In this document: piece after piece, positions 1,841 through 47,782 of the stretch
Position numbering within the stretch: the first letter of the stretch is position 1
How the letters are laid out: every line of letters begins with the position of its first letter
Source: Botryococcus braunii
Lineage: Eukaryota > Chlorophyta > Trebouxiophyceae
Direction: 5' to 3'
Length of the DNA: 64,000 bases
Assembly: GCA_002005505.1 (NCBI GenBank)
Contig: KV908648.1
Coordinates: 63,210 to 127,209, forward strand
Made by a program: the position numbers and the translations under genes
Notes under the pieces: model-generated
Database searches by the model: none
The model's input: the letters and a program-made list of their open reading frames with translations, nothing else
What the model was told of the DNA's origin: nothing

Positions 1841-2677
1841 TGTTGTGTATTAGTTGGAAGATGCCGTAACTGTAAGCGGTACGTATGCCGTTGGAGAATC
1901 ACTTCCTGTGAACACCACCAAGTAATCTCAATGTCTATATAGACCAGTGCTCGCACTGCCGTCTATATCTGCCGACTGCTCTCCGATCAGGACACCCTTG
2001 GCCCTTCAGCAGTCCCAGGAGTTTAATGGCTACTCCCAACCAATCGCTATAACCAGTGTGCAACTCGTCACACACAAATAGCCTTACTGTTCGCACAACA
2101 GTAACATACAAGCAATGCAGCTCCTGTATTGAAATGAATGTGACAGCAGTATATCAAGCAGTCCTTCAATACAGAGCAAACACTATTCAGCTTGGAGCTC
2201 GAAGCCCAGATGCATTCCACACCCCATCGACTGCCAAGCTTGCTCGCGATCTGGCGTTTCTATGCCTTCTGATCGTAACCGGCTGTAACGGTACAGTTCC
2301 TTTCGAGAGGCTGTACCATACTGCATGGTCACATAAACAACCCTGACTTGGCCCTATGCCAACGTGTAGCTCTATAGCTGCACCAGGGATCTCGTACTTA
2401 TACACGCGTACACACTCAATGGAGTCTTTACCTTGTGACCTTACCGTCACTAGTACAAGACCTGTACTGCATGGAGGTCACTTATATGATCAACCTAACT
2501 GAACATAATACAATACCCTTTGACACGCAATCAGGCGCATCTTCTTACTTGTACTCCACACGTGGAGAAATTCAAGTTATACAATGTTTCCTAAAACCAC
2601 TTGATAAACTGATAGCGCCCCTGTATCTTGTACGTTTGCCATCACGTATCTATACGTACCTATCAGTTTATACAACA
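1841..2677 (-). repeat. cop0 5' LTR, single spliced R
   Basis: 837 bp, minus strand, beginning TGTTGTATAAAC and ending TACACAACA. It aligns with the cop6 LTR over U3. It contains the 330-bp R segment only once and without introns: the junctions ATACAG/GAGCTGC, TATAGCG/ATTGG and CAGTCG/GCAGAT are all in spliced form. The unspliced copy, spacer and TGTAA signal present in cop6 are missing. The tail after R (GAAGTGATTC onward) differs from that of cop6. Confidence 0.85.
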
Positions 2678-7398: not shown

Positions 7399-7693
7399 CG
7401 CTTTCCAAGCTGAGCTTGCAGTGACGCACGACAGATTTCCAGGGAGAAAAGGGGTTTCGGACCCCGCTTCGAGACTGCGAGCTTCACTGACGAGTGAGGT
7501 CTGGCCGTTCAAACATATCGAGCTAGTCACGTAAAATTATTCCTTCTGTAGTGCTGGAAGGAATTGTTGTACAGTAGCAACTGGGCTGGGAAAGCAGAAG
7601 TACTTCTGGGACTGATCAACTCAGTGTCAGAGCTAGGAAGAAGTGCTTCCAGGGGAAGTCATTTAAGGCTTGGAGTGAAGAACTGGCTTGATC

Positions 7694-10600
7694 ATGAAAA
7701 CTAGAAGCAGACAAGTGATCATGAAAACGAGAAGTAAGCGCACTGCAACGGAGTCTGGATCAGCTGGGTCTGGCTCCTCCATCAGTGCATCACCCAGCCA
7801 GCCAGCAAACTCCACTGCGCAGAGTGGAGAGATGTGCATCGCAATGACGAAAACCGGTGGCGTCGTCACCACGAATGTCAAATGTCCAGTGACTCTGGAC
7901 AGAGAGGGAGTGGAATTTCCACTCTGGGATCTGGCATATGTGGCAGCCTGTGGCCTCAAAAGGTGCAAGGCAGCCATTGAAGCTCCAATGCCAGACACAG
8001 AGGAGAATGCAGCAGCGCTCCTAATGCTGATTGAGAGCGTCCCCAAGGCGTGGGGTGCCAAGCTGGCTGCAATGCAAGTGGCAGCCAATGCCTACCAGTG
8101 GGTTCGAGAGCGTTTTACTGGAGGGGCAGACCAGGAGGTAACAGCACGCTGGCTGGAGCTCCTACACACCAGCATGGGAGAGACAGAAACGTTGGAGGAC
8201 TACTACAACAGGAAGGTGGCACTCTTCCATGCACTCAAGCGAAATGGGCACTCCATCATGGAGAGAGAAGCCAAGCTGGCAATCATCAAGGGCCTGCCAG
8301 AGGAAGCGAAGGAGACTGGGATGTTCTCCTCATCTGCTGGGAAGGATCTGGAGGGACTGTGGGAGATCATCTCCACCACAGCCAAGGGACTGGGCTTCAA
8401 CGACCAGGTCCCCAGAGTCACCCCTGTGGCCAGGGCAGCCATCACACCAGCCTACTCCACCACACCAGGGACTGCAAGCCCACAGGAGACCCAAGCTGGA
8501 GGCCAGGGGGGCCAAGCTTCATCGACCAAGGTGGAGGGACGGGACCGGCGTGACAACAGGCGCTGCCGCTACTGCAACAAGCTAGGCCATTTTGAGAGGA
8601 ACTGCCTCAAGAAGGAGGCGGACGAGAAGATGCAACAGAACCTGCAGCAAGTCATGGCTGCAATGGCCAATCTGCTTCCGCAATTCCAAAATCAAGCGTC
8701 GGCTGCAGTGGCTCGACCTCCGGAGGGCAGCGGGAACGGCAACAACTTTTTCCCCGGGGGATATCCACCACCCTCTGGTATGTCTGCCATGATTTCTCTG
8801 AATGTCTTAACACCAACACGCGTCATGCCAGAAGCGAGAAGTTTTCTGGTGGACAGTGGAGCCACCATCCACCTAGTCAATGATCTGTCCCTGCTACATT
8901 CCCCCACCCTGCACAGAAATCCCATTCCTTTGCATATGGCTACGTCAGATGCCACGGGACAGATAATTGCAACTGGTTCCCTGTGCTTGAGCAGTGCAGA
9001 ACAGCAACCCCTGTGGCTTCACAATGTGCATTGTGTTCCTTCAGCTACAGCTAATCTGATTTCAGTGACAGCTGCTATACGTGATGGGGCTAGTTTTGTG
9101 ACAGACAGTGTGGGAAGTTACACTGGTATGCGTGGCGCTCAAAACTGGTCTTGTTCAGTTGCACAGAGAAATGGCCTGTATTTCTTGCAGAAGGTCAGTC
9201 CAGTCAGAAACCCTGCCTCTGTGTTTGTTAACACAGCCAGAGCACCAGTCGCTCATGATTGCAGATTGAGAGCACTGTGGCACAGTAGACTGGGGCACCC
9301 AGGGGAGGTTAATATGAGGCGACTGCAGTCTGAAGATTTGGTCCTGGGCATCCCTGTATCTCTCTCCCCTTGCGCAAACTGTCACTCTTCGTGTGAAGCG
9401 TGCATTCAAGGAAAGCACAGTCGTCCCCCTTTTGGAACCAGTTCCAGAGCAGCCACTGAGCCCCTTGAGAGAATTCATTTGGACACAGTTGGCCCCATCT
9501 CCCCTACAGCTATTACTGGGGAGCGCTTCTTTGTCACGATTGTGGATGAGGCTACGCACTACGTCATAGCCCTGGCAGTAAAAACCAAGGATGCAATCAG
9601 CAGTGCAGTCAGAGACCTCCTGATTTTTTGGCAGAGGCAGTTGAACCGCTCTGTTAAGTGCATTCGTACTGACAGGGGGACAGAATTCCTCAACAGTACA
9701 TTGAAGGGTTTCTGTACGCAGGAGGGAATTAAATTTGAGACCTCTGCAGCATACACGCCTCAGCAAAATGGCGTTGCTGAACGGATGAACCGAACAATCA
9801 AGGAGAAGGCCAGAACACTCATGTTGCATGCAGCTGCCAAACAGTCACTCTGGAAGGAAGCAGTGGAGACAGCCTGCATCCTGTACAATATGGGACCTGT
9901 GACTGGACGTGACAAGACGCCTTATGAAGCCTTCCATGGGGTAAAGCCCGATGTATCCCTGCTCAGGACTTTTGGCTGTCTAGCACATGTGCACATACCT
10001 GATCACCAAAGGGGAGTGTTTGAGTCTAAGACCTCCCCTGGTCTCTTCACAGGGTATTCCAGTGTGTCAAAGGCATATAGAATTTATATGGGAAACGGGA
10101 TTTGGAAAGAAAGCAGAGATGTTACCTTTCTGGAGCACTTAAGGGGCGCAGACAGAGTGGGGCTTAGCACCATGTCTCCTGTGAGTCCAAATGCAGTCCA
10201 GCAGCCCTTTGCCTTGCCTTTTGTACAACAGGAGGGCCAGCAGTCCTTGGGTCAGTTGTCTTTTTGGGACTCAGATGATCCTGAGCCTCTCTGCAACCGA
10301 GAGGTCAACGTGCAGCAGTCCGGACCTGACTCCCCCTGTGCAACCACCCCCTGTGCAACTACCCCATGTGCAATCAACCCCTGTGAGAATTCTGAGACTA
10401 CAAGTGTCAACGTGGACGGGGAGCCCACTTCCTCGGAGCTGAGCCATACGCAGTCCGGCCACAGCTGGTCCGTACTCGGACACATGGAGAACCTGGCGCG
10501 AGGAGGCGAGGAGACCAAGTCACACATGCAACGTTTGAATAATGTGCAAGAATGTGTTCGAATGGAAGTTGGGGCCATGGGTGTCCGAGGGCAAGACGGG

Positions 10601-12838
10601 CTGACCCGGCAGCAACGGTATGATCAGAGAGTAGCAGCACGTGAGACTGCAGCTGAGGTCACTGTGGAACATGATGGAGATGTGAGTGATGGAGAGAATA
10701 GGAGAATGTCAGAGGCCATTTGCCCAGGGGAAGCAACGGAAGCTCAGCCTAATGGACAGGACTTGGCCAGGCTGGAGGGCATGTCTGATCATGTAAGCGC
10801 TGAGAGTGAGGCAAGAGAGGTCAGTTTGGAGATTTCCAATCAGACACTTGATGGACAAAGGGAGTCTTCAGATGGCCAGGCTCTGCGTGCTTGTGAGGGA
10901 CACACTGGGGAGTCACAGGTGTGTTGTGAGAGTACAAGCGTGGATGAGAGAGACACCACTGCAGGGTGTCGCACAGTGCCAGATTATGCTGCGCCTTTGA
11001 GTGATGAGTGCGTTTGGGACATGACGAGTGATGTAAGACCCAGATTGAGTGGAGCAGCATGTGAATCCTCCAAGGAGAGAAAGCTGCAGACACCTCCAGA
11101 GTGGGAGAGAGTCAGAGAGGTGTGTAACGCAGTAACCTCGAGCGAAAGAGTAGTGGAAGCACGTGCGTGTGAGCCTAGAGAGGATAGCCATGTTGTGCAT
11201 GATCACAATCTGAATCCTGTAAAGGGTAAGATACCTGGGGTGAGGTGGTCCAAGGTGCCAATCCCTGGAAACCTCAGGGAGGCGCAAAGATCCCCTCAGT
11301 GGGAATTCTGGCGCCAGGCAATGCAAGAGGAGCAAGATTCTCTTGATGCGCACGAGGTGATGGAGTACGTTGAGAGACCCAGGGGACACAAGGTGATCCC
11401 TGTGCATTGGATCTTCTCTGTGAAGACTGATGCACATGGGAACGTGTTGAGATTTAAGGCTCGGCTTGTAGCCCAGGGCTGTAGACAGATTCCTGGAGTT
11501 GATGTAGATGAGGTCTTTGCACCTACCAGTAGCTATGGGTCCAGGAGGACTTTGCTAGCAACTGCTGCAGCAAAGAACATGGAAATTCACCAGGTGGATA
11601 TAAAGACCGCCTTTTTGAATGGTGAATTAGAGGAGGAGGTGTATGTGACACAGCCTCCTGGATTTGATAATGGCAACCCCAACATTGTGTGCAGACTGCG
11701 TAAGGCCCTTTATGGCCTGAAGCAGGCTCCCAGGGCTTGGCACAAGACCCTGAATGAGAAGCTGCTGAGTATGGGATATGAAGTGTGTAAGAGCGATGCG
11801 GGAGTTTACATAAAGAGACACGAGGATGGGGAGCTGTCATACATGCTTGTGTATGTTGATGATCTTTTGATTGTGGCAATGGGTGCGGAAGAGATAGAAT
11901 GGGTGAAAAAGGAGCTGTTGGCAAGCTTCAAGATTCATGACCTTGGTGAAGTCAAGGACTTCTTGGGCTGCCAGATCCTGAGAGATAGAGAGAATCGGTG
12001 CTTATCACTGAGCTGCGTGCCTAAGATTGATGCACTGTGTGAGAAGTTTGGGGTGAGTGCTGAGTCACGTACAGTCGATACTCCCATGAGTAAAGACTTT
12101 GTGATGTCTGGGATGCCGCAGGTTACAGTGGGTGAGACCAGCTTTGGGTCTGGGACTCCACTGCCTCCCGGGCATAGATATTGTGAGCTTGTTGGGTCTC
12201 TGTTGTATATTGCTAATACAACTCGACCTGATATAGCTCAGGCTGTGGGTGTTCTGTCCCGTTACCGGAACGCTCCCACCACTGCCCACATGAATGAGGG
12301 CTTGAGGGTATTGAGGTATCTTCAGTCTACTCGAGAGTGTGTCTTAGTGCTGGGAGGGAAAGGGCCTGTGTTAGAAGGTCATGTTGATGCAGATTATGCT
12401 GGCGATATTGACAGCAGGCATTCTACCTCGGGATATGTGCTATCAGTGTTTGGCAGTGCTGTGGTCTGGGGTAGTAAGAAGCAACACTCAGTTGCTACCT
12501 CCACTGTGGAGGCAGAATTCATGGCAACCAGTCTGGCTATTAAGGAGCTTAACTGGCTGCGTGGGTTCATGGAGGAAATCGGAACTCCTCCTTGGTCAGT
12601 GAAGCTATACTGTGACAATCAGGGGTGCATTGCTAACCTGAAAAACCCACTGTATAGCAAGTATACTAAGCACATTGCAGTGTGCTTCCACTTTGCACGT
12701 GAAGCTATTGCAAAGGGGCAGGTTACACTCTGCTATGTGGAGTCTGCAAGGAACAAGGCAGACATGCTGACAAAGCCTCTCGCTCGCCCTGCCTTCCAGA
12801 CGCACAGGCGAGGGTTTGGACTTGTGAAGATGACATAG
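7694..12838 (+). CDS. gag-pol: cop1 Gag-Pol polyprotein
   Basis: One uninterrupted frame of 1,714 codons plus stop. ATG at 7694 is the first in-frame AUG (MKTRSRQVIMKTRSK). Order: capsid; zinc knuckle CRYCNKLGHFERNC (about residue 290); aspartic protease FLVDSGATIHLV (about 385); integrase HHCC (WHSRLGHPGEVN and CHSSCEACIQGKH, about 530-575), catalytic Asp in LDTVGPIS, TDRGTEF and Glu in QQNGVAERMNR (about 595-700); an acidic variable linker (about 820-1180); RT with VDIKTAFLNGELEEEVYV and YVDD in LVYVDDLLIVA (about 1390); RNase H with VDADYAGD, VEAEFMA and DNQGCIANL (about 1565-1650); and the usual ADMLTKPL end. All catalytic residues expected for copia are visible. Gag and Pol are fused with no stop or frameshift, so the Gag:Pol ratio must be set in another way. 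Expression would start from the LTR. Confidence 0.95.
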   Translation: MKTRSRQVIMKTRSKRTATESGSAGSGSSISASPSQPANSTAQSGEMCIAMTKTGGVVTTNVKCPVTLDREGVEFPLWDLAYVAACGLKRCKAAIEAPMPDTEENAAALLMLIESVPKAWGAKLAAMQVAANAYQWVRERFTGGADQEVTARWLELLHTSMGETETLEDYYNRKVALFHALKRNGHSIMEREAKLAIIKGLPEEAKETGMFSSSAGKDLEGLWEIISTTAKGLGFNDQVPRVTPVARAAITPAYSTTPGTASPQETQAGGQGGQASSTKVEGRDRRDNRRCRYCNKLGHFERNCLKKEADEKMQQNLQQVMAAMANLLPQFQNQASAAVARPPEGSGNGNNFFPGGYPPPSGMSAMISLNVLTPTRVMPEARSFLVDSGATIHLVNDLSLLHSPTLHRNPIPLHMATSDATGQIIATGSLCLSSAEQQPLWLHNVHCVPSATANLISVTAAIRDGASFVTDSVGSYTGMRGAQNWSCSVAQRNGLYFLQKVSPVRNPASVFVNTARAPVAHDCRLRALWHSRLGHPGEVNMRRLQSEDLVLGIPVSLSPCANCHSSCEACIQGKHSRPPFGTSSRAATEPLERIHLDTVGPISPTAITGERFFVTIVDEATHYVIALAVKTKDAISSAVRDLLIFWQRQLNRSVKCIRTDRGTEFLNSTLKGFCTQEGIKFETSAAYTPQQNGVAERMNRTIKEKARTLMLHAAAKQSLWKEAVETACILYNMGPVTGRDKTPYEAFHGVKPDVSLLRTFGCLAHVHIPDHQRGVFESKTSPGLFTGYSSVSKAYRIYMGNGIWKESRDVTFLEHLRGADRVGLSTMSPVSPNAVQQPFALPFVQQEGQQSLGQLSFWDSDDPEPLCNREVNVQQSGPDSPCATTPCATTPCAINPCENSETTSVNVDGEPTSSELSHTQSGHSWSVLGHMENLARGGEETKSHMQRLNNVQECVRMEVGAMGVRGQDGLTRQQRYDQRVAARETAAEVTVEHDGDVSDGENRRMSEAICPGEATEAQPNGQDLARLEGMSDHVSAESEAREVSLEISNQTLDGQRESSDGQALRACEGHTGESQVCCESTSVDERDTTAGCRTVPDYAAPLSDECVWDMTSDVRPRLSGAACESSKERKLQTPPEWERVREVCNAVTSSERVVEARACEPREDSHVVHDHNLNPVKGKIPGVRWSKVPIPGNLREAQRSPQWEFWRQAMQEEQDSLDAHEVMEYVERPRGHKVIPVHWIFSVKTDAHGNVLRFKARLVAQGCRQIPGVDVDEVFAPTSSYGSRRTLLATAAAKNMEIHQVDIKTAFLNGELEEEVYVTQPPGFDNGNPNIVCRLRKALYGLKQAPRAWHKTLNEKLLSMGYEVCKSDAGVYIKRHEDGELSYMLVYVDDLLIVAMGAEEIEWVKKELLASFKIHDLGEVKDFLGCQILRDRENRCLSLSCVPKIDALCEKFGVSAESRTVDTPMSKDFVMSGMPQVTVGETSFGSGTPLPPGHRYCELVGSLLYIANTTRPDIAQAVGVLSRYRNAPTTAHMNEGLRVLRYLQSTRECVLVLGGKGPVLEGHVDADYAGDIDSRHSTSGYVLSVFGSAVVWGSKKQHSVATSTVEAEFMATSLAIKELNWLRGFMEEIGTPPWSVKLYCDNQGCIANLKNPLYSKYTKHIAVCFHFAREAIAKGQVTLCYVESARNKADMLTKPLARPAFQTHRRGFGLVKMT

Positions 12839-18785: not shown

Positions 18786-18988
18786 GAGGGGCCAAATTTT
18801 GAGCTCCTCTCGTTGAAAAAATTTCCCAAAGAAGTTTTTCAGAGAATTCTATAGATTCGGATTGGGTTAGTTGTGGTGTGTGTGGCGCTTTTAGGGGCCT
18901 ACGACTCGGGTCACCGAGTTTAGGGCCCCCACCCGGACTTTCTCGATTTCCTGTGTCACCGAGCCTCGCCAACACTGACAGCTCAGAA

Positions 18989-20320
18989 ATGGCTAGACGA
19001 CAAGTCGAAGAGCTGCAGGCTGCTTTGGCCGAGGCCGAGGGGCGTGAAGCGGCAATGGCTGCCGAACTGGCTGAGTTACGACAACAGGCAGAAAACGCTG
19101 AAGTTGCGGCTCAAAACCCCGCGAACCCACAGGCAAGAATCCCGACCGTTCGAACCCACTTACCGGAAAAATTCGAGGGACGCAGGGACGATCTCGAACA
19201 ATTCCTAGACGATGTGAGGTCATATTGTGAACTCACCGGTGTGCCCGCGAACCTCAGGGTTGACTACGCAGTGCGCTGCTTAGGAAAGAGCGTGAAAAAG
19301 GTGTGGTTAACAAAAAAAGCAGCTTACGTGAGGCAAAATCCAGGTGCTGTCGTGGATTTAGCTCTCTTTGGGGATCTGTTGTCTTCTGTCTATGATAACA
19401 CTGATAAGGTTGCAAAGGCAAGGGATAAACTTGATTCCGTATATCAGGGCAACGAATCAGTTGAGAAGTATGTTGAGCGCTTTACAACCTTGCTAGCAGA
19501 GGTAGAAGTCAGTGGGGACCTATCCATGGGGGAGAAAATCCATAGGTTTCGTAAAGGCCTACGTGAGGATTTAAAGAAATATTCAGCAATTAACCCTACA
19601 ACAGGCAAAGGTTTTGATGATTTGGATGCCTTGATAAGTTTACTCACACGGTACGATGCCGCGGTGGGCGGGCCCTTACAGGCAAAGAGACTGAGAACCG
19701 GCCCCGGGGGCCCTAACTCAAGCATTGCAACCGCCACCGTTGGCCAAGCACCGCACGTTGCTGGCGTCGGACAGGACTGGACAATCCCCTACTACAGTCA
19801 TGAATTTGGGATGATGGCAGCTGCACCGATGGTGGCAGCGCCAATCCAGATGGCCCATGGTTACCCTGCGCCGCTCGCCACGGTCGCCGCGATCCAAGGC
19901 GCGACTCCTTATCCCCGCAGGGATGGTTTACCTCCCGAGTATCGGAGGGACACTAGAGTTGCCTTTCCCCTCAACAGAAGCTGTTACGCGTGCAATACCC
20001 CTGGCCATGAATCTTGGTTTTGCCCACTCAAAAAACTTAGAGAGGACCCTAACGCCTATCTTAATCAACAACAGTGGGACATCTTGCAACACATTGTGAA
20101 GGCCAGACAGGAGGTAAACCAGCCTGCTCCACCAATTCCAGGTCTGGCTGGTGATTTGCTGCGGCGACGGGTAGGAGGGGGCCACAACAACTTTAGGTCC
20201 CTCGGTGTGGGAGCAGCCCCTATGCAAGGGTGGACAGCACAGGGTGGGGCCGGACGGGGACGGAGAATCAGAGGACGGGGCCGTGGACGGGGCCGGGCAA
20301 GGGGACGCGGTAGGCCATGA
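18989..20320 (+). CDS. gag: Ty3-1 Gag
   Basis: 443 codons from ATG 18989 (MARRQVEELQAALAEAEG). An in-frame GTG further upstream is a less likely start. The N-terminal 40 residues look like a coiled coil (Glu/Ala/Leu-rich). A Ty3-type capsid follows (RTHLPEKFEGRRDDLEQFL; later SVEKYVERFTTLLAEV and FRKGLREDLKKYS). There is one zinc knuckle, CYACNTPGHESWFC (about residues 330-345), and an Arg/Gly-rich tail that could bind RNA. The stop overlaps the next start as ATGA at 20317-20320, which suggests termination-reinitiation for pol. The frame is intact. Confidence 0.9.
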   Translation: MARRQVEELQAALAEAEGREAAMAAELAELRQQAENAEVAAQNPANPQARIPTVRTHLPEKFEGRRDDLEQFLDDVRSYCELTGVPANLRVDYAVRCLGKSVKKVWLTKKAAYVRQNPGAVVDLALFGDLLSSVYDNTDKVAKARDKLDSVYQGNESVEKYVERFTTLLAEVEVSGDLSMGEKIHRFRKGLREDLKKYSAINPTTGKGFDDLDALISLLTRYDAAVGGPLQAKRLRTGPGGPNSSIATATVGQAPHVAGVGQDWTIPYYSHEFGMMAAAPMVAAPIQMAHGYPAPLATVAAIQGATPYPRRDGLPPEYRRDTRVAFPLNRSCYACNTPGHESWFCPLKKLREDPNAYLNQQQWDILQHIVKARQEVNQPAPPIPGLAGDLLRRRVGGGHNNFRSLGVGAAPMQGWTAQGGAGRGRRIRGRGRGRGRARGRGRP

Positions 20321-23300
20321 GTGGAGTTAGAGAAGGAAACCTCCACACTTTTGTTCCTTGGGAATCTTTTCATTCTTCTATCGAGCAACGTTGTTCTGAG
20401 TTTTTGCATTGTTCTTTTTCTAGAGGCCCCTTTGACAATACCCTACCCGATGGAACGTCTAAACCGACATTTGTTGCAGTACCTATAGGTAAAGCGGAGG
20501 ACACCTTATCCACTTTCGCTCGTGAGCAACAAGCAAATAAACATTTAAGTGCTTGTTTTCTAATGGGTAGTAAAGTGGCGAAATCCAAGGCAGTGTACCC
20601 ATGGCTAAAAGGCATGAGAGTTATCCTGCAAGGTACCAAGGGACCTGATGTCCCCTACTCCTATGTAGTTTACCATGCCGGACCCAAATTTAGCGTATCT
20701 TTTGCTCAAGCTTTTTCAAATAGGCATTTAGCAATGCTTTTTCATGTTAACTGTACTGGTGTGAAGGGCGTCGCTTTAGTCGATACCGGGGCGACGCACT
20801 CGTTCGTCAGACATGACTTCCTAGCTACTCTCGGAGTGAGGCTGTCAAAGAAGTGTGTGGATGTCCAGCTTGCAGATGGGCAGACCATGCGCTCGGCGGG
20901 GACAGCTAAGCTCAGGGTGCACTTATCTCAAACAGAGGGATTTCATTGTCTGCGAAACTCTGTTGGATGGGGTGGACTTAATCCTTGGTGAGGATTTTCT
21001 GAAAGAAAGAAAAGCGTTAATTGACTACAATCATGGCGCAGTTCATCTTAAACCGCCTCATTCCTCACACTACATTACACTCCTCAACCCGCTGCCCCCT
21101 AGTGAAAGAGGTACCTTACCGGCGCAAAAAGTAAATGTTATAAGTGAGGGTCAAGCTAGGCGGGCTATGCGAAAGGGTTGTCCAGGGTTTTGGGGGGTTG
21201 TGCGAGAGGCAAGGAGTGGACAGGACTCAGTTTGTGCAACACACTATCTCCATAGGGTTGCAGTGGCAACTACAGAGGGGGATAATCCTTGGGACGAAGA
21301 CAGCGGAGCCACCGGCCTAGATTTAAACGAAAACTCCCGGCGTGTTATTGAGGGTATGACTGACAAGCCACAAGACTTGAAGCAATTGTTGTTAGAGTTT
21401 TTGGATGTTTTTCCAGAGAAATTGCCAGATTTACCTCCAGACAGGGGCATCTTGCACACTATACCTATGACACCCGGCCATACGCCGCCCTGTCGCCCCA
21501 CTTATAGGTTGGCTGAACCAGAAGTGGCGGAGTGTCGGAGGCAGGTTGAGGAATTACTAGCACAGGGTTTCATCAGGCCGAGTGCATCACCGTATGGTAG
21601 CCCCATATTGTTTGTGAGAAAGAAAGACGGAACATTCCGAATGGTTATAGATTACAGGGCAGTTAATAACTTAACAAGGAAGGACAAATATCCGTTGCCA
21701 CGGATAGACGATCTTCTGGACAAGCTGCAGGGTTCAAAGTTCTTTACCTCTTTTGATCTCTTGTCAGGTTACCATCAAGTGCGATTACATGAATCTGATG
21801 TTCCGCTTTTAGAACACCCTTAGGTTCATTTGAATTTTTGGTGCTTCCTTTTGGTCTCACGAATGCTCCCTCCACGTTTCAGAGACTGATGAACAGTGTG
21901 TTTCATGATTTTATTCGAGAGGGTTTTGTTGTGGTTTACCTAGATGATTTGTTGGTATACAGCAAGTCCAGGGAACAGCACTTAGAGCACTTAACTCGCA
22001 TCCTTACTCGGCTGAGAGAGGAAAAACTTTATGCAAAATTATCCAAGTGTGAGTTTTTTGCTGACGAGTTGCGGTATTTGGGACATGTCGTGGGGCGCGA
22101 CGGCATCAAAGTTGACCCTGCCAAAGTTCGGACTATTGTGGACTGGCCAACACCCACGGGGAGCACGCACGTACGACAATTCTTGGGACTAGCCAACTAC
22201 TTCCGCAAGTTCGTCCCGGGTTACAGTACGCTTGCGGCCCCCTTAACCCGGCTCACTGGCAAAGTTCCTTGGACGTGGGGAGAAGCTGAAGAGCACGCGT
22301 TTCAAAGTTTAAAAGAAACTTTGTCCAATGCTCCTGTACTAGCACTCCCAGACAGTAGCAAGCCTTTTAAAGTGATCTCAGATGCCAGTGACTATGGGGT
22401 GGGTGCAGTACTATTGCAAGAAGGTAGACCTGTAGCATACTTCAGTAAAAAGCTTAGTAATGCCGAACGCAATTATTCCACAACTGAGAAAGAGCTTGCA
22501 GGTGTGTTGTATGCCCTCAAGGAGTGGAGGTGTTACTTATTAGGGCAAACTTTCACAGTTGTTACGGACCATCTATCATCGCGCGAATAGTTTTTTGCAA
22601 ACCCAAACCCTACTCTCACCCAGACGGGCGCGCTGGGCGGAGTTTCTACAGTTATTCGACATCCAATGGGAATATGCGCCGGGATCCACTAACCCTGCTG
22701 ACCCATTGTCTAGGAGTCCTCACTTAGCCGGGGCCCACGTCCGAGCCCTAGCTCGGGCCCAGGCTGGGGTTCAGGCGTCGGTTCAGGCTAGGGCAGGGCC
22801 CCTGGGGGAGCACTCTCCCCCGGTCGGAGTAGGAGCGATGGGGGTTGGGGAGGCTGCAGACTCCACCACCCTACCCACGCCGATGGACGGGTTGAGGGGA
22901 TGGGGAAGGGTTTTAAGTGAGGCATATGAGATAGATGATTGGCTCCATCGTAAACAAAATCGCCGCAAGTTAAGCTTCCATAGTGGCTTGTGGAAGCGCG
23001 GTGCGCGCATTTACGTTCCCTCCCACCATATGAGTTCTGACGGTGTCGAACGTAACCTTCGTAGAGAAATCCTGGAAAATTTGCATGGACCACCTATAGT
23101 TGGTCATCCAGGCAGGGACAGGACCCTCGAATTAATTCAACGTTCCTGGTGGTGGCCAGGGATGGCCGCAGATGTGGCTGACTTTGTGGCCCAATGTGAC
23201 TCGTGTCAGCGTGTCAAAGCCCCAGCACACTTACCTGCAGGGTTACTACACCCTCTAGAAATACCTGACAGAAAGTGGCAATCAATGTCTATGGACCTAA

Positions 23301-24451
23301 TCACTGGACTGCCAAGAACTAAGGAAGGATATGACGCTATCTGGGTTGCTGTTGATAGGTTGTCAAAGTATGCGCACTTCGCTCCGACGACCACTGACGC
23401 AAGTGCAGAAGTGATAGCTCAACTGTTACGGACCCGGGTTTTCACCTTGCATGGGTTTCCCACTCACATTGTATCTGACAGAGATCCTAGGTGGGTGGGT
23501 CGCTTCTGTCAAGAGCTCTTTCGGTTGACCGGTTGTCGCTCTGCGCTATCTACAGCGTTTCATCCGCAGACCGACGGTCAAACGGAACGAATTAATAGGA
23601 TTTTGGAGGATTATTTGCGTCATTACGTCACTGGAAGACACAACGACTGGGATAAACATTTGTGTGAGGCTGAATTTTCTTACAACAACACTTTTCAGCA
23701 ATCAATCAATACTACTCCATTTAGGTTGACTTTCGGTCAGGATCCCACGATTCCCTTCCAGGAAGTCTATGAAGGTGTGACATCTTCTGTACGTGAGTAT
23801 GTACCGGCAGCAGCAGAGTTTGTACGAAGGATGAGATGGGATCTAGAAAGAGCGCGGACATGTCTCAAAGCTGCGCAGGACCGCATGAAGGCATATGCGG
23901 ACGCGAGGAGAAAAGATGCTCCTATTTTAAAAATAGGCCAACCTGTCCTCCTCTCAACAAAGAATCTGAAATTCAAGCATACTCGGACAAGAAAACTCTT
24001 ACCTCGGTTTATTGGGCCTTTTCCCATCGTCCAGGAGGTATCATCGGTAGCTTTCAGAATTAGGCTTCCAAAAACTCTGAGGGTTCATGATGTCTTCCAT
24101 GTTTCTATGCTTAAGCCTTATAAGGAAGGTGGGACGGTACAACCTCCTCCTCTACCTGAGATTATTGATGGAGAAGAGGAGTATGAGGTCGAGGCTGTGC
24201 TAGCTCATAGGGAACGAAAGTTACGAGGTCGAAAAACTGCGCGAGAATATCTTGTAAAGTGGACCGGGTATCAGGATATTCATAATACTTGGGAGCCAGA
24301 GGATAACTTAGAACACGCCAGGGCGGCGTTACAGCGGTACTGGGATTTAACCACGGAGCACAGGCCGGAACAAAAAGAAAAGGTGGACAAGAAACGTAAA
24401 GGACGTGGTAAAAATGCTAAGAAGCAGCGGAAGCGCGCTAGGCGCGCTTAG
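20317..24451 (+). pseudogene. pol: Ty3-1 Pol with chromodomain, three frameshifts
   Basis: The start codon shares ATGA with the gag stop. Order: aspartic protease LVDTGATHSFV (about 20780); RT ([22 protein letters not shown] at about 21940); RNase H (SDASDYGVGAVL, about 22380); integrase zinc domain (GHPGRDRTLELIQRSWWWPG with CDSCQ, 23100-23215); core with MDLITGLP, SDRDPRW and TDGQTERINR (23290-23600); chromodomain with EYEVEAVLAHRERK and YLVKWTGYQDIHNTWEPEDN (about 24180-24330); and a Lys/Arg-rich end. The frame shifts near 20940, near 21800 (just before the FEFLVLPFGLTNAPSTF motif) and near 22575 (a 7-base gain near the H of VVTDH). Domain order is that of chromoviruses. As written the sequence cannot make a full Pol, unless the indels are assembly errors. 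Confidence 0.92.
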
Positions 24452-39464: not shown

Positions 39465-40002
39465 TGTAAAAGGTTATGGACATTGGCGTATCCTGTAAGC
39501 AAGCAGACAGGTCGTAAGTTTGTGCCTCTCCAGCTACAGTCCTCGACGACTGTCTGCTCTTTAGACACATGCAACTGCATGAACAAGACTGGCATCCTTA
39601 TGTGCCCAGTATCTTTCCAAACCAGTTTCGTTACAGGTTGATCAGTCAATGAGCATCTACACACGGATAAGGTCCTGACGGCTGAAAGCAAGTACCTTCC
39701 TATACTCAATCAAGACTCCGTCCCTTAGCGTTTTGGGAGACTTGGTTGTACACTAACATGGTTCACTTACAAACAAGCAATCAAGCATGAACACATTACC
39801 AATACACACCCTGCGTCACCGCACCTGTAAGCAAGCAGACATGTCGTAAGTTCGTGCCTCTCCAGCTACAGTCCTCGACGACTGTCTGCTCTTTAGACAC
39901 ATGCAACTGCATGAACAAGACTGGCATCCTTATGTGCCCAGTATCTTTCCAAACCAGTTGCTCGACTATGCGGTGATTGCAGCTTTAAGAGTCCTTTCAC
40001 AC
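39465..40002 (-). repeat. cop4 3' LTR, distal segment
   Basis: The R copies, spacer and tail of the cop4 3' LTR, ending (minus strand) TTTTACA at 39465. The break at 40002/47783 has cop6 target duplication CACAC (39998-40002 and 47778-47782). The uninterrupted version is seen in the cop4 5' LTR at 53515-53560. Confidence 0.9.
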
Positions 40003-40549
40003 TGTTGTGTAAACTGATAGGTACGTATAGATACGTGATGGCAAACGTACAAGGGTACTATCAGTTTAACATGTGGTTTTAGGAAACATTGTATAACTAG
40101 AACCTCTCCACGTGTGGAGTACAAGTAAGAGGATGCGCCTGATTGCGTGTCTAGGGTTAATGTATTGTGATCAGTTTGGTTGATCATATAGAGACCTCCA
40201 TGCAGTACAGGTCTTGTACTGGTGACGATGTGTCACAAGTAATAGACTCCAGTGAGCGTGTACACGTGTATAAGTTCAGGATTTGTGGTACAGTTGTAAG
40301 GCTACACGATGGCATAGGGCCGTGTCAGGGTTCTTTATGTGGCCATGCAGTACGGTACAGCCTCTCGAAAGGAACTGTCCCGTTACCGCCGGTTACGATC
40401 AGGAGGTATAGAAACGCCAGATCGCGAGCAAGCTTGGCAGTCTCGATGGGGTGTGGAATGCATCTGGGCTTCGAGCTCCAAGCTGAATAGTGTTTGCTCT
40501 GTATTGAAGGACTGCTTGATATACTGCTGTCACATTCATTTCAATACAG

Positions 40550-40672
40550 GTAAGCTTGCGATCGCTGGCAAGGGTAACGGTCGCAGTCGTGTGGCTGCGA
40601 TCGTAGGCGTTAAGCACATGCATACTGATGTTTCTGCTGATTATGAAACATTACATTGGTCTTGTGTTGCAG
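40550..40672 (+). other. Intron 1 in cop6 R copy 1
   Basis: 123 bp, GTAAGC to TTGCAG, between ATACAG and GAGCTGC. The junction without it, ATACAGGAGCTGC, occurs in R copy 2 (41220), in the 3' LTR and in cop0 (minus). Confidence 0.9.
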
Positions 40673-40751
40673 GAGCTGCATTGCTTGTATGTTACTGTTG
40701 TGCGAACAGTAAGGCTATTTGTGTGTGACGAGTTGCACACTGGGTATAGCG

Positions 40752-40837
40752 GTGAGTACAGATACGTATAACAAGCTTGCTCCTGCAGGTTAAATAACTG
40801 TTTTGTTTTGATCTCTGATGATCCACATATTGTGCAG
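40752..40837 (+). other. Intron 2 in cop6 R copy 1
   Basis: 86 bp, GTGAGT to GTGCAG, between TATAGCG and ATTGGTTG. Absent from R copy 2 and from cop0. Confidence 0.9.
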
Positions 40838-40909
40838 ATTGGTTGGGAGTAGCCATTAAACTCCTGGGACTGCTGAAGGGCCAAGGGTGTCCTGATCGGA
40901 GAGCAGTCG

Positions 40910-41013
40910 GTACGTACACATATGTGGATAGGTTGCGTGTGTGTTTTATATGGTTTAGATATATTTTATGGACACTGATGAACCCACAAGTAAATCGTAA
41001 CGCTCGGGTGCAG
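40910..41013 (+). other. Intron 3 in cop6 R copy 1
   Basis: 104 bp, GTACGT to GTGCAG, between CAGTCG and GCAGATAT. Absent from R copy 2 and from cop0. Confidence 0.9.
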
Positions 41014-41505
41014 GCAGATATAGACGGCAGTGCGAGCACTGGTCTATATAGACATTGAGAGTACTTGGTGGTGTTCACAGGTAAATATACGTAAACCATT
41101 TGTAACCAGTCTCGATGGGGTGTGGAATGCATCTGGGCTTCGAGCTCCAAGCTGAATAGTGTTTGCTCTGTATTGAAGGACTGCTTGATATACTGCTGTC
41201 ACATTCATTTCAATACAGGAGCTGCATTGCTTGTATGTTACTGTTGTGCGAACAGTAAGGCTATTTGTGTGTGACGAGTTGCACACTGGGTATAGCGATT
41301 GGTTGGGAGTAGCCATTAAACTCCTGGGACTGCTGAAGGGCCAAGGGTGTCCTGATCGGAGAGCAGTCGGCAGATATAGACGGCAGTGCGAGCACTGGTC
41401 TATATAGACATTGAAAGTACTTGGTGGTGTTCACAGGGGATACGTCTCTCTTCATGCAAACGGACCGCTGACGGTTACGGCAGCCTCCACTCAATACACT
41501 ACAAA

Positions 41506-41518
41506 GGTCATGGGCCCA
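41506..41518 (+). promoter_or_regulatory. cop6 primer-binding site
   Basis: GGTCATGGGCCCA, two bases (AA) after the LTR, one mismatch from the GGTTATGGGCCCA of other copies. cop0 has the same AA spacer. Confidence 0.75.
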
Positions 41519-41529
41519 CCGCTCGTTGC

Positions 41530-41664
41530 ATGCAAGACGACGACGTCATCCTGATAGAAGACACTAGAGAGAAAAGAGCCACGCGGGGCCGTACGGTCAG
41601 TGGGGCTGCAGATAGAGTCAGAGTGGTAAAGATACACTCTGAAAGACAAGTGGTTACTGATTAG
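41530..41664 (+). CDS. cop6 stunted leader ORF
   Basis: 44 codons, ATG 11 bases after the primer site, as in cop0. The N-terminus QDDDVILIEDTREK parallels cop0 PEEEVIVIEDTPEP: an acidic flank around an aliphatic VIxI core. A basic Arg-rich stretch follows, then a stop at 41664, far short of the 326 codons in cop0. It is probably a remnant, or a minimal peptide kept for its N-terminus. Confidence 0.55.
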   Translation: MQDDDVILIEDTREKRATRGRTVSGAADRVRVVKIHSERQVVTD

Positions 41665-44600
41665 TAGCCAGCAGTACAGTGAGAGAGCAGCTGCAAAACA
41701 GGCGAGCGGGCTCGGGGTTTGAGACGACTGGATGGAGCTACATCGACAATTGGCTCCATTAGACAACATCGGATACGGCTTGCAACCTGGAGAGTTGTGC
41801 ATGTGGCAATGGGGATGCACCTTCTCATTGATTGTGGCCGAGCCAAATGATGTGTCATTTGAAAGATTGGGTTGTTGTTTGTATGCTTGCTTCAGGGGTG
41901 GTTGTTGTGAAAATGCTGGTTGGCGTGAAAGAGCGCAGTTGCATTTGATATCATTGATGTGTGGTGATGTGGAGTTTCAGCCAGGGTGATTACATAATTC
42001 ACATCACGGTGCATGGTACCAAATGTACTTTGGGAGCGTGATTTGGTGCTGTGTGAAGATCAAGATGTTGGGAGATTGCATGCAAGAGGAGTGAGTGGCT
42101 TCTTGTGAAGTTGTTGAAGCTATTATATCAGAGGCATGTGATGACTGGGTTTTGTTGATATCATGTTCATTGTTGAGTGAACATTGGAGTTCAAAATCCT
42201 TAGTGTATGTAAATCACTTAAAAGCGTGAGTCAGTTTTGGCATTGTGAAGCAATGAAGTGGAGGGAATATGGCTGGTCTGACTGGGCTGGCATGAGTAAA
42301 AGTGAGCATGACACTAATTTTGAGTTGCATTGATTGAGGATGCAGGGGAAGAGGATGGCTTGCGGGCTCATTGAGTACCTCAAAGCAACTCCTGCTGGAG
42401 CTGGCCCCACGATGAGGTGTCATTGGGGGCACATCCTCTCGGGCGGTCTACAGTTTCTTCTGTAGGTTTGTCCTATTGATGTTAGGATTTAAGCCTGAAC
42501 CAAGAAAAAGAAAAGGGGGCTCTTGGCAGGAGCCTACTTGGTGTCGAAGAGACAGTGATAATGAGTATGTGCAAGTTATGTATGTACATGGGCTGAGTTA
42601 CATGATACTAGATTGGGTGTAGAGTTAGTATGAATTGTCTCTGGTGCACATTCATCTGCATGTGTGTGTTGTAGGATAGTGCAGCACATGCATATCTTAA
42701 TCAACAGAGGGACTTGTTGATCAAGATAAGATATATAGGGTTGAGTGAGGATGAGAAATTGCATGGCAGCAACTAGAGCCTAAAAGTGTGTGAGCTGAGT
42801 ATGCTGTCCAAATGTGGGAGTGTTTGGGCCAAAGCTGATGCATAATTGGGTCATGAGAAGTTTAAAAGTTATCGGTGCGATCACGCGTTTAGGTGGTGAA
42901 GACTGGCTTTGCACCAAATTATTAGTGCTTTACCATGATGGCTTAAGGTAATGGCAATTGTCTTCAAACCTTGTGCCCAGATCTATGAAAGGGGAAATCA
43001 GAGTGGTTAGCGCAGAAATATTGGAGTGAGTAGGTTTCAGGTTATCGTTGCGTAAACGTGTGGGTTTCCAAGACTCAGGTTCTTGCCCGGAAGAGGGAGG
43101 GGAGTTTTGGGAGACGCAAAGAAGTGTACCTGGGGCTCAGAAAGTTGAGATGTGAGATCCTTCAAGCTCTACACCATCAGTTTTGAAAGTACAGAGGATT
43201 TCAAGTTGATTATGGGACTGATCATGATCCAGAGAGAGTAGACTTGGGAAGGAAAAATTGAGCAGGGTAGTGGAAATCTGGTATTCCTTTGAGGGTTCTG
43301 GGGAAGATGTAAATGTTAGTACTGCATCAGGTTGTGGTACATAAAGGGTGAAATCTGGATTAGATGATAAAGAATTGTTGGGGTACATGAGTTGTGATAA
43401 AAACACTTGGAACACATTCACAGTGATGGGATGGGTTGCAGTAGAAAGAGGGTGCTCTTCACATCAAAAACAAAAGAGGAAGGGGATGACAAGAAATGCT
43501 TAAATTTTGCTCAACAGTTGGTAGCAGAGTTAGAGCATCCATGGTGCATTTTGGTTCAAAAGGTTTAAACATAGAGGAGGGAAGTTCATGCCAAATTGGA
43601 CTGAGGTATCCTAGTATGGAGTAGGCATTTAATCCTCCTAATGTTGTGGTTGGGAATCCAAGAAAACAAAGGGATGAGATATTTCCTGTCTTGTTTTTGG
43701 TTGGTTTAGATGTTTAGGCATGTAGCTGAGAGTCAGGGGTAGGACTCAAGTAGCTGTACTTGCTTAAAACTCCTTGGAGACAGCATGTTTCGATCAACTC
43801 ATATGTCATGAGGGATGTGCCTGTGTGTATGTTTACACTAGCACCATGATCTGAAGATTTACATATGGCTGGATTGCCAGGTCATGCTTATGATTACGAT
43901 TGCATGTGTTAAGATGGGGCATCTGTTCTTGTTGAGAGCAGTTGCTGCCTTAATGGTGAGTATTTGTTGGAATATTGGTGCAAGGGGGACCATTCTGATG
44001 AGAGGCTGGTCACTTCCTTGTTTCCTGTGACAATTTTCTGACAAGATAAGACATGATGTTGATTGGAGTATTGAGGTGGGGATGGGCCATGATGTGTGAT
44101 GGCTGGAATACTCTTGTGTGTGTGACAGACAACCTTTTGAGGTGAAATCTAGTTGAGAAGATACTGCACATTGTTAAGGATTGTAATTTTTCCTCCAGGG
44201 TAGTCAACTTAATTCTACAATCTTCTGTAGAGTTGTTAAGATTTTGGTTAAAATTGGAAAGGGGTTGTGGCTGGTTAAGTGCTTTCAGACATCGTTGCGC
44301 TGGTGCGCAGCGTGCAAGATTGCCACTAGAAACACTTGGAAAGAGGTCTTTTAGTGTGGCATTACGGTTTAGATAATTTTTTTAAGAAAATACTTAGACA
44401 ATTTGGTGTGAACTGAGTGTTCTCCTGGTCCTGAATGGCTCAGGGAGGCCTTGTAGCTCTTACTGCACAGAAAACGTGCTAGGTCTAGTTCTCACACGTT
44501 AGTGAGAGAGACTGCACGTCGATTTCTGGTTTTACGGTTCGACTCGAGTGAGTTCGAGTGGTAGTCACGCGGTTTTAAGCTTGACACTCCGCGTCGAATC

Positions 44601-45470
44601 GTGAATTTTGTTGATCGGGGTACTGTTCGATACTCCGGACGATTCGTGGTTCGAATCTCCTAAGTTGTTTTTACCACTTGAGTTCGAGTGGTAGTCACGC
44701 GGTTTAGGCTTAAGACTCCGTGTCGAAGTGTGAATCCTGTTGATCGAGGTACTGGTCGATACTCCGGACGATTCGTGGTTCGAATCTCTTAAGTTGTTTT
44801 AACCTCATGATTTATCTCAGCCATGGTTATTGGCTGGGACCTTGCTGAGGATCTTTTGTGTTTTGGCCCTTGAACATTTGGTCACTGTGTGTGTGTGCCG
44901 TGCATCTCCCCAGGGTTTGAGGGGAGGTATTTGGAAACACTTAAGTATGTACTGACAGCCTTGTTTGTTGTCGGCGCTGAGCTCTCTACTGGTTGGTTGA
45001 GTACAATGGTAGAACTCATTAATTGGATTGCATTGCAGTTTGTTGCATGATATGCATCTTGTTTGCAGGTACTGGAGTGTACCTGGAAACTATATAGTGG
45101 TTTTAACAATAGAAGTGTTGGTTGGGGACTGCTAATTTGTAGTCCCGCGCTTCTGGTTATTCAAGCTTTGTGAATTGAGGTGGTTGGCACCTTATGGTAG
45201 AGGGTTGGTTCTGCTAACAACGGTGGTTCTAGACTAGTAAGTAATGTTAAGAGTGCTCGTACCTTTCTTGAAGGGGGAAGGGACAGCATGTAGTACATGT
45301 TTGTGTTGTGGTCATCAAAGAAAAAGTTGTACTTTGGATTCTTGCTGTGTTCCAATGCCAGGATGAGTACCGGTCGGGGGAAGCAAAGGAACGGGGAAGC
45401 AAGAAGTTGGTACGAAGTATTCTCAGATCTTTGGGGAAGAGAATGCGGGTTCTGGATCTTCACGGCCGGA
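41665..45470 (+). other. cop6 internal non-coding region
   Basis: About 3.8 kb where gag, protease, integrase and most of RT should be. I see no copia domain in any frame, only short ORFs. It contains TTATCGNTGCG-like motifs (42872, 43043, and a weaker one at 44292) and a tandem repeat at 44551-44810. The sequence may be captured host DNA or a highly decayed spacer. Confidence 0.75.
44551..44810 (+). repeat. Tandem duplication, 130-bp unit, tRNA-like boxes
   Basis: Two units (44551-44680 and 44681-44810) about 90% alike, each starting AGTTCGAGTGGTAGTCACGC. Each holds GTGGTTCGAATCT, a match to the B box, and TAGTCACGCGGTT, resembling the D arm of class II tRNAs. A further B-box-like ACGGTTCGACTCG is at 44534. 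Whether these are tRNA relics is uncertain. Confidence 0.55.
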
Positions 45471-46121
45471 CCGACACCGGTACTTGGAGCTCATCGGATC
45501 GCTGCAATATTTGGCCAATATCACACGGCCAGACATCTCACATGCAGTTAGCCTGCTGGCACGTTATCGTGCAGCCCCAACCACTGCACACATGCGTGCA
45601 GGGTTGAGGATTGTGAGGTATCTGTTAGGTACCAAGGATACGGGATTGGTGTACGAAGGAAAGGGGAAGCAAAGTCTGACTGGCTTTGTTGACTCTGATT
45701 TTGCGGGGGATGTTGATACAAGAAAATCAACACCGGTTTCGTGTTCATGCTAAATAGGGGAGCAGTGTCGTGGGGAAGTAAGAAGCAACAATCAGTTGCG
45801 ACTTCAACTGTTGAGGCCGAGTTTATTGCGGCAAGTCACGCAATAAAGGAAGGTGTGTGGCTTGGGAGCTTGTTGGAGGAGCTTGGTCAGGCAGTGTCGG
45901 GTGTAGAATTGAGGATGGACAACATGGGTTGTATTGCAAATCTGCAGAACCACGTGTTGTCCAAATACATCAAGCACATTAGCGTGTGCTATCATCAAGC
46001 GAGGGAGAAGCTGCATGGGGGCAAATCACGCCAGTGTACGTCAGCACAGAAGACAATGTGGCTGATATTTTCACAAAGCCGTTGGCCGGTCCTGTCTTCC
46101 CCAAGCACCGTGACAGCTTGA
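45471..46121 (+). pseudogene. cop6 RT end and RNase H remnant
   Basis: ELIGSLQYLANITRPDISHAV, then RNase H: FVDSDFAGDVDTRKST, frameshift near 45740, then RGAVSWGSKKQQSVATSTVEAEFIA, DNMGCIANLQNH, HQAREKLHGG, frameshift, and traces of the DIFTKPLAGPVFPKH end in another frame (46060-46110). Without RT core or integrase it cannot act alone. Confidence 0.88.
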
Positions 46122-46262
46122 GAATGGGTTAACCCTAGAGAGTTGAAGTTCTAGGGCTTTAGGGCTTTAGGGCTTCACAGTGCCTAAGTTAACTCGGAAG
46201 AGTAGTGCGTTGACTGGAACAATTGAACTCATCATTATTGAACGTTGTTATAAATGTTTTCT

Positions 46263-46274
46263 AAAAGGGGAAGA
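46263..46274 (+). promoter_or_regulatory. cop6 PPT
   Basis: AAAAGGGGAAGA close to the 3' LTR start at 46276. Confidence 0.75.
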
Positions 46275-46275
46275 T

Positions 46276-47777
46276 TGTTGTGTAAACTGATAGGTACGTA
46301 TAGATACGTGATGGCAAACGTACAAGGGTACTATCAGTTTAACATGTGGTTTTAGGAAACATTGTATAACTAGAACCTCTCCACGTGTGGAGTACAAGTA
46401 AGAGGATGCGCCTGATTGCGTGTCTAGGGTTAATGTATTGTGATCAGTTTGGTTGATCATATAGAGACCTCCATGCAGTACAGGTCTTGTACTGGTGACG
46501 ATGTGTCACAAGTAATAGACTCCAGTGAGCGTGTACACGTGTATAAGTTCAGGATTTGTGGTACAGTTGTAAGGCTACACGATGGCATAGGGCCGTGTCA
46601 GGGTTCTTTATGTGGCCATGCAGTACGGTACAGCCTCTCGAAAGGAACTGTCCCGTTACCGCCGGTTACGATCAGGAGGTATAGAAACGCCAGATCGCGA
46701 GCAAGCTTGGCAGTCTCGATGGGGTGTGGAATGCATCTGGGCTTCGAGCTCCAAGCTGAATAGTGTTTGCTCTGTATTGAAGGACTGCTTGATATACTGC
46801 TGTCACATTCATTTCAATACAGGTAAGCTTGCGATCGCTGGCAAGGGTAACGGTCGCAGTCGTGTGGCTGCGATCGTAGGCGTTAAGCACATGCATACTG
46901 ATGTTTCTGCTGATTATGAAACATTACATGTGTCTTGTGTTGCAGGAGCTGCATTGCTTGTATGTTACTGTTGTGCGAACAGTAAGGCTATTTGTGTGTG
47001 ACGAGTTGCACACTGGGTATAGCGGTGAGTACAGATACGTATAACAAGCTTGCTCCTGCAGGTTAAATAACTGTTTTGTTTTGATCTCTGATGATCCACA
47101 TATTGTGCAGATTGGTTGGGAGTAGCCATTAAACTCCCTGGGACTGCTGAAGGGCCAAGGGTGTCCTGATCGGAGAGCAGTCGGTACGTACACATATGTG
47201 GATAGGTTGCGTGTGTGTTTTATATGGTTTAGATATACTTTATGGACACTGATGAACCCACAAGTAAATCGTAACGCTCGGGTGCAGGCAGATATAGACG
47301 GCAGTGCGAGCACTGGTCTATATAGACATTGAGAGTACTTGGTGGTGTTCACAGGTAAATATACGTAAACCATTTGTAACCAGTCTCGATGGGGTGTGGA
47401 ATGCATCTGGGCTTCGAGCTCCAAGCTGAATAGTGTTTGCTCTGTATTGAAGGACTGCTTGATATACTGCTGTCACATTCATTTCAATACAGGAGCTGCA
47501 TTGCTTGTATGTTACTGTTGTGCGAACAGTAAGGCTATTTGTGTGTGACGAGTTGCACACTGGGTATCGCGATTGGTTGGGAGTAGCCATTAAACTCCTG
47601 GGACTGCTGAAGGGCCAAGGGTGTCCTGATCGGAGAGCAGTCGGCAGATATAGACGGCAGTGCGAGCACCGGTCTATATAGACATTGAGAGTACTTGGTG
47701 GTGTTCACAGGGGATACGTCTCTCTTCATGCAAACGGACCGCTGACGGTTACGGCAGCCTCCACTCAATACACTACA
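46276..47777 (+). repeat. cop6 3' LTR: unspliced R followed by spliced R
   Basis: Same architecture as the 5' LTR: R copy 1 begins at 46711 with the three introns, TGTAAC precedes 47381, R copy 2 is 47381-47710, tail to 47777. Differences from the 5' LTR include one inserted C near 47136 and several substitutions. Confidence 0.93.
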
Positions 47778-47782
47778 CACAC

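Follow-up and report, generated by a model that had tools for sequence, protein, structure and literature searches.

Long terminal repeat (LTR) elements must ignore the poly(A) signal at one end of the element and use the same signal at the other. Usually, they must also keep their genomes unspliced. In Ty1/copia elements (Pseudoviridae), the primer-binding site (PBS) matches an internal part of initiator tRNA-Met. Some LTR elements, namely BARE1, copia, Ogre and EVADE, are reported to have spliceosomal introns (PMC3735527, PMC12786077). According to these accounts, the introns of BARE1, copia and Ogre lie inside or between coding regions, and those of EVADE and Ogre yield subgenomic RNAs (PMC3735527, PMC12786077). 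The relevant sections of both accounts describe no intron in the LTR, or in the part that templates it, for any of these elements. An artificial intron has been placed in TyH3, where its precise loss is presented as proof of an RNA intermediate (PMC12786077). For foamy viruses, R is reported to contain the major splice donor, which precedes the poly(A) signal of the LTR; attachment of U1 to the donor suppresses 5' polyadenylation, and upstream sequence relieves this suppression in the 3' LTR (PMC3694450). An R of ~10 bp has been reported for Sire (PMC3601003).

Here, we describe the cop6 family of LTR elements. Like Ty1/copia, cop6 has TG...CA LTRs, a 5-bp target repeat, a polypurine tract and a copia-type RNase H remnant. 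The PBS candidate is also alike. Unlike Ty1/copia, the cop6 LTR holds its leader twice, once unspliced and once spliced, with introns inside the LTR. As in foamy viruses, a candidate splice donor precedes the candidate LTR poly(A) signal. Unlike in foamy viruses, splicing of cop6 would remove the poly(A) signal itself. We know of no foamy virus LTR with a second, spliced R copy. Intron-marked Ty elements are engineered and their loss is one-way, whereas cop6 has loss and retention side by side in the LTR. A preliminary description of the locus was aware of no published LTR with this layout. We also found none in what was covered of the open-licence PubMed Central literature on LTR introns, splicing and poly(A) control. 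The replication step proposed below would, as far as found, be new.

Unspliced and spliced leaders share one LTR

The cop6 element spans positions 40003 to 47777 of the window, which is the whole stretch of 64,000 nucleotides analysed (Table 1). It is flanked by the target-site repeat CACAC (39998-40002 and 47778-47782). Each LTR is ~1.5 kb long and is ordered U3, copy 1, 26-bp spacer, copy 2, U5. The preliminary description placed three GT-AG introns (123, 86 and 104 bp) in copy 1 and found them exactly absent from copy 2. Our analysis confirms the coordinates, lengths and junctions. The copy 1 exons (112+79+72+67 bp) sum to 330 bp and copy 2 is also 330 bp long. In the 5' LTR, 329 of these 330 positions are identical, and the single substitution is in E4. 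The 3' LTR differs from the 5' LTR by few private changes, such as one additional C in E3 of copy 1. Hence, the layout of U3, unspliced copy, spliced copy and U5 stands. Calling both copies R probably does not, because the true R would be only ~10 nt. The terms "unspliced leader" and "spliced leader" probably fit better.

Table 1. Features of the cop6 element and of a related LTR in the window.
Feature	Position	Strand	Basis or detail
5' LTR (TGTTGTG...CACTACA), 1501 bp	40003..41503	+	sequence
U3, putative promoter region	40003..40437	+	upstream of copy 1
Copy 1, unspliced leader E1-I1-E2-I2-E3-I3-E4	40438..41080	+	sequence comparison
Intron 1, GTAAGC...TTGCAG, 123 bp	40550..40672	+	GT and AG both kept in 65/67 LTRs
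Intron 2, GTGAGT...GTGCAG, 86 bp	40752..40837	+	GT and AG both kept in 64/67 LTRs
Intron 3, GTACGT...GTGCAG, 104 bp	40910..41013	+	GT and AG both kept in 65/67 LTRs
Spacer, 26 bp, candidate poly(A) signal TGTAA at 41101-41105	41081..41106	+	sequence
Copy 2, spliced leader without all three introns	41107..41436	+	sequence
Putative intron 4 (spacer + copy 2)	41081..41436	+	donor GTAAAT at 41081, acceptor CACAG ending 41436
U5	41437..41503	+	sequence
Primer-binding site candidate GGTCATGGGCCCACC	41506..41520	+	sequence
Broken copia RNase H remnant, two frames	45367..46121	+	identity to the window's copia polyprotein
Polypurine tract AAAAGGGGAAGA	46263..46274	+	sequence
3' LTR	46276..47777	+	sequence; layout same as 5' LTR
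Parts of 3' LTR		+	copy 1 from 46711, spacer 47355-47380, copy 2 47381-47710
Subfamily B LTR, one fully spliced leader copy (2233-1906), without introns or spacer	1841..2677	-	

The window element has TG...CA LTR ends, a short target-site duplication, a PBS candidate and a polypurine tract, as expected of Ty1/copia. With the RNase H remnant, the LTR ends, PBS and polypurine tract indicate that cop6 is a copia-type element. The two remnant pieces share 59% and 56% identity with the copia polyprotein at 7679-12838; a Pfam search of remnants in the cop6 body gave no match. Besides these two pieces, the body (41504-46275) has no sense-strand open frame of at least 120 codons, and no open gag-pol. 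The PBS candidate is presumably complementary to the anticodon arm of initiator tRNA-Met. No tRNA gene was found in the window using ARAGORN. The complementary motif GGTGGGCCCATRACC occurs at 928+1044 (~1970) places in the genome with at most one mismatch, compared to 41+29 for the reversed control. Given the number of motif places, the genome may be very rich in elements primed in this way. The family includes subfamilies A and B, with 87% identity in U3. Several A-type LTR pairs lie at a near-constant spacing of 6.27-6.31 kb; the spacing is ~6.73 kb for subfamily B. Subfamily A may be a non-autonomous passenger of subfamily B.

The layout is a family trait

We searched the 176-Mb genome for the leader junctions. 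There were 131 places with the spliced E1/E2 junction and 118 with the unspliced E1/I1 junction (at most 3 mismatches). Exact gapped patterns located 142 spacer/copy-2 and 147 U3/copy-1 junctions. All reversed-pattern controls gave 0 matches. Among 100 listed of the 131 spliced junctions (0-1 mismatch), 79 had an unspliced E1/I1 junction 662-689 bp upstream, with pairing scored among matches listed on both sides (100 of 131 spliced, 100 of 118 unspliced). These numbers, 131 spliced junctions with 79 of 100 listed ones paired, rule out a chance origin of the layout. Eighteen of the 21 other listed spliced junctions were read. Nine had an intron-bearing copy 1, two were the two spliced copies of one triple LTR (L077), two had a truncated copy 1 (L087, L088) and five were single intron-less LTRs (L031-L035).

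When 16 loci were chosen by the unspliced junction alone, 13 had the spacer and copy 2 downstream. The exceptions were L062, with no copy 2 after the spacer, L063, with a single leader copy that keeps intron 1 and lacks introns 2 and 3, and L071, with neither spacer nor copy 2. The presumed partner of the last, L072, is normal. At L038, the sequence breaks off in copy 1. All 20 divergent LTRs had the layout; copy 2 was interrupted in L091 and L110, and partly masked in L095. These 20 were picked via a query that runs from copy 1 through the spacer into the beginning of copy 2 (40 of 206 candidates scored), and represent the reach of the layout rather than the frequency of its absence or an independent count. 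The pairing of intron-bearing and intron-free leaders is a family trait, present in most LTRs. The preliminary description had asked if every LTR of the family pairs both copies. Most do, and single, triple and partial forms also exist. The triple LTR (L077, C163:72160-73520) has three leader copies, unspliced/spliced/spliced, with a TGTAA spacer between each. At C48, both presumed LTRs of one element (L032 and L034, ~6.07 kb apart) are of the single spliced type. Given this pair, replication may generate the single spliced form or transmit it.

Copy 2 follows copy 1 across lineages

In 50 LTRs, the copy 1 exons and copy 2 differed by 1.03% within an LTR and by 5.1% between LTRs. Adding the 20 divergent LTRs, and excluding L091, L095 and L110 because copy 2 is interrupted or masked, gave a set of 67. 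Here, the difference was 1.45% within an LTR (boundary base included) and 10.7% between LTRs, with a maximum of 28.8%. The three excluded LTRs were also left out of the tree, variant and mosaic analyses. Distances for copy 1 and copy 2 were correlated across the 67 LTRs (r = 0.994). The nearest copy 2 was that of the same LTR in 49 of 67 cases, ties included, and uniquely so in 24; these counts are modest because many LTRs are near-identical. For 20 LTRs more than 4% apart, the own copy 2 was nearest in 17. In a maximum-likelihood tree of those 20, copy 1 and its own copy 2 were sisters in 15 cases, 11 strongly supported. The five remaining pairings lacked resolution and there were no contradictions.

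The same pattern was evident at individual sites. Across 102 variable exon columns, the two copies agreed in 6630 of 6781 cells (97.8%), where independence would give 69.7%. Minor alleles of copy 1 were present in copy 2 of the same LTR in 1281 of 1343 cells. In 58 elements, variants found in both copies recurred in other elements in 121 of 147 cases. Variants confined to copy 1 recurred in 9/104, and those confined to copy 2 in 5/87 (4/86 without the boundary G, 36 elements). Hence, shared variants recur and copy-specific ones rarely do, as predicted if every cycle makes copy 2 anew from copy 1.

Copy 2 thus follows copy 1 across lineages, with 6 of 67 LTRs (L039, L049, L061, L064, L065, L097) in which copy 2 is closer, by at least 3 differences, to the copy 1 of another LTR. 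For L097, this copy 1 belongs to the presumed partner L094. In L043 and L044, 7-8 sites differ between the copies in both LTRs, and the sampled LTRs include no donor. Transfer between elements could explain a better-fitting foreign copy 1, with a donor identified for L049 only. Intron interiors are nearly as conserved as exons, which we count against the rewriting model.

Some LTRs are mosaics of subfamilies A and B

Within each copy, A and B types are told apart by only two diagnostic bases, one of them an indel. In L049, U3 and copy 1 are B-type and copy 2 is A-type; U5 is A-type at 19 of 20 diagnostic sites. The type change falls after the E1 start of copy 1 and before that of copy 2. The leader downstream of U5 also has an A-type marker. 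This requires at least two switches, or DNA recombination. In L026 and L027, both copies and the last 60 bp of U3 have B-type bases and U5 is A-type. Their U3 is 98% A-type overall, so these LTRs are not simple descendants of an element like L049. In L030, A-type bases in both copies are flanked by B-type U3 and U5, and this LTR may simply represent another lineage. We take the mosaics as supporting, not decisive, evidence for rewriting.

The copies start with different bases

The base preceding AGT was C in copy 1 of 66 of the 67 LTRs. In copy 2, it was G in 52, C in 13, T in 1 and missing in 1. When all 70 LTRs were counted, including the three excluded above, copy 2 had G in 53, C in 14, T in 2 and a gap in 1; copy 1 had C in 69. 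Among 100 listed of the 142 spacer/copy-2 junctions, the boundary base was G in 79, C in 20 and T in 1. One or two variable bases separate TGTAA from AGT, both of which are present in 67 of 67 LTRs. For presumed LTR pairs among the listed junctions (5.9-6.9 kb apart), 21 of 22 share the junction, with 0.32 expected by chance. In the sole discordant pair, the copy 1 starts are of different types and apparently belong to two different elements. One presumed pair outside the listed 100 (L011/L020) also differs (CG/TG). The TG forms may have arisen by CG to TG transition.

Reverse transcriptases can add a base opposite the cap at the end of strong-stop cDNA. The G before copy 2 would fit with such copying of the RNA cap. 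If so, the RNA start would lie at A 40439. Counted against cap copying is the presence of C instead of G at 17-20% of copy 2 boundaries. Inheritance from the acceptor could account in part for the boundary base.

The spacer and copy 2 resemble a fourth intron

The spacer opens with GT, and copy 2 ends with AG, each in 63 of 67 LTRs. Hence, the spacer plus copy 2 looks like a fourth intron that would join E4 of copy 1 to U5. All 67 spacers contain TGTAA, a candidate poly(A) signal by the Chlamydomonas standard. By sequence, then, a candidate splice donor precedes the candidate poly(A) signal of the LTR. TGTAA is reported as the principal poly(A) signal of Chlamydomonas, at a mean distance of 14 nt from the downstream poly(A) site (PMC3439250). 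An RNA ending ~10 nt into copy 2 would have an R of ~10 nt. Removal of intron 4 would explain why copies do not accumulate and how the 5' poly(A) signal is skipped. The predicted RNA fold of the spliced leader plus U5 was not unusual (z = 0.04).

The genome also contains RbcS genes split by introns, which makes a green alga the probable host. One fragment (L111), which ends before the 3' end of the gene, has CAG/GT-like splice borders by eye. The encoded protein most resembles Rubisco small chains, among them 1uzh and 1gk8, which we take to be Chlamydomonas entries.

A proposed replication cycle that would rewrite copy 2

The best explanation overall is that cop6 is a family of copia-type elements with genomic RNA spliced in the leader, and with copy 2 rewritten in each cycle. 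We assign this a probability of about 0.85. Transcription would start at A 40439, at the beginning of copy 1. In RNA from the 5' LTR, introns 1-3 would be removed, as would intron 4, comprising the spacer and copy 2 and carrying the poly(A) signal. Hence, the 5' end of the spliced RNA would read E1-E2-E3-E4-U5-PBS. In the 3' LTR, the same introns would be left unspliced, and the RNA would end just past TGTAA, ~10 nt into copy 2. The tRNA-primed strong-stop cDNA would copy the spliced leader, often with one additional base opposite the cap, and anneal to the short (~10 nt) RNA 3' end. The new LTR would take U3, the unspliced leader and the spacer from the RNA 3' end, and the spliced leader and U5 from the RNA 5' end. 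Changes in copy 2 beyond its first bases would not be inherited, since copy 1 exons would rewrite copy 2 every cycle. The proposal of the preliminary description, that strong-stop DNA made from a spliced leader is joined to an unspliced RNA 3' end, is thus supported by the concerted evolution of the copies, the rare recurrence of copy-specific variants and the changed boundary base.

Nothing in the sequence accounts for the unspliced state of the 3' copy, and this counts against our explanation. Our guess is that distance from the cap, and the lack of a defined upstream exon, keep the 3' copy 1 unspliced. The triple LTR L077 is as expected if introns 1-3 were removed with intron 4 retained, and could also come from unequal crossover. 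Were intron 4 regularly kept, tandem leader addition would add one spliced copy per cycle. We rank this low; one triple LTR was found. The odd forms (single spliced, L077, L071, L063) could also reflect recombination between the repeated exons. We consider it likely that the retroelement genome is obligatorily spliced. Copy 2 would then be an intron in every genomic RNA, rebuilt for each DNA copy solely via reverse-transcribed spliced RNA.

The family would reverse what LTR elements usually do; the leader seems to be spliced, the poly(A) signal hidden in an intron, and the loss rebuilt during reverse transcription. If this is true, LTRs are not necessarily simple terminal repeats of the RNA. 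The family would also preserve a natural trace of how RNA is processed at the two ends of a retroelement genome, and would allow a clean test of the site of strand transfer. For such elements, dating of LTR pairs and annotation of LTRs would rest on too simple a model.

Alternative explanations

The precise loss of three introns suggests that spliced RNA was reverse transcribed at least once. Conceivably, this was a single past accident, with both copies since passively inherited in LTR DNA. The copies should then diverge as two lineages, yet the two copies of an LTR remain similar even where LTRs differ by as much as 28.8%, and variants private to one copy seldom recur. We regard a single accident as scarcely credible. 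Instead, copy 2 could have arisen once and been kept like copy 1 by gene conversion or recombination between the repeated exons at the DNA level. Exchanges between exon repeats may indeed occur, as suggested by the single, triple and partial forms (L031-L035, L063, L071, L077). However, exons of only 67-112 bp are homogenised over their full length, yet no intron-containing copy 2 was present among the LTRs read. Similarly, two spliced copies without an intron-bearing copy were found in 0 LTRs (97 judged of the 100 listed junctions). Gene conversion also does not explain why the base at the copy 2 start is altered, and we consider it very unlikely. A further possibility concerns origin and is compatible with recurrent rewriting. 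The intron-less state could be ancestral, with copy 1 acquiring three introns, or introner-like inserts, prior to the spread of the family. Single intron-less LTRs do exist (window 1841-2677; L032-L035). However, the most divergent LTRs read share the introns, though they were chosen for intron or layout. Furthermore, double LTRs of subfamily B match the window's single LTR at 99% identity across U3 and E1, so this single LTR looks derived. Intron gain is, in our view, highly improbable.

Recurrent rewriting might also take a different route, in which the spliced RNA that templates strong-stop DNA is a distinct molecule, and the DNA is in every case transferred to another, wholly unspliced genomic RNA. 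L049, whose copy 2 and U5 are foreign to its copy 1, suggests that intermolecular transfer takes place. However, with unspliced leaders frequent in particles, copy 2 would often derive from an earlier copy 2. A wholly unspliced genome must also pass the TGTAA of the 5' LTR some other way. Hence, we doubt that two RNAs are always involved, and prefer a cycle in which the genomic RNA itself is spliced in its leader.

Other repeats in the window

Just upstream of cop6, a 136-bp unit occurs at 39492-39627 and again at 39824-39959, with more copies elsewhere in the window. Separate from cop6, an open frame of 1719 codons occupies positions 7679-12838 of the forward strand; its product is a copia polyprotein (GAG-pre-integrase, integrase, RVT_2). 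The same strand also has, at 18803-24451, parts of a chromovirus of the Ty3/gypsy type (gag, RVT_1, integrase zinc finger, chromodomain).
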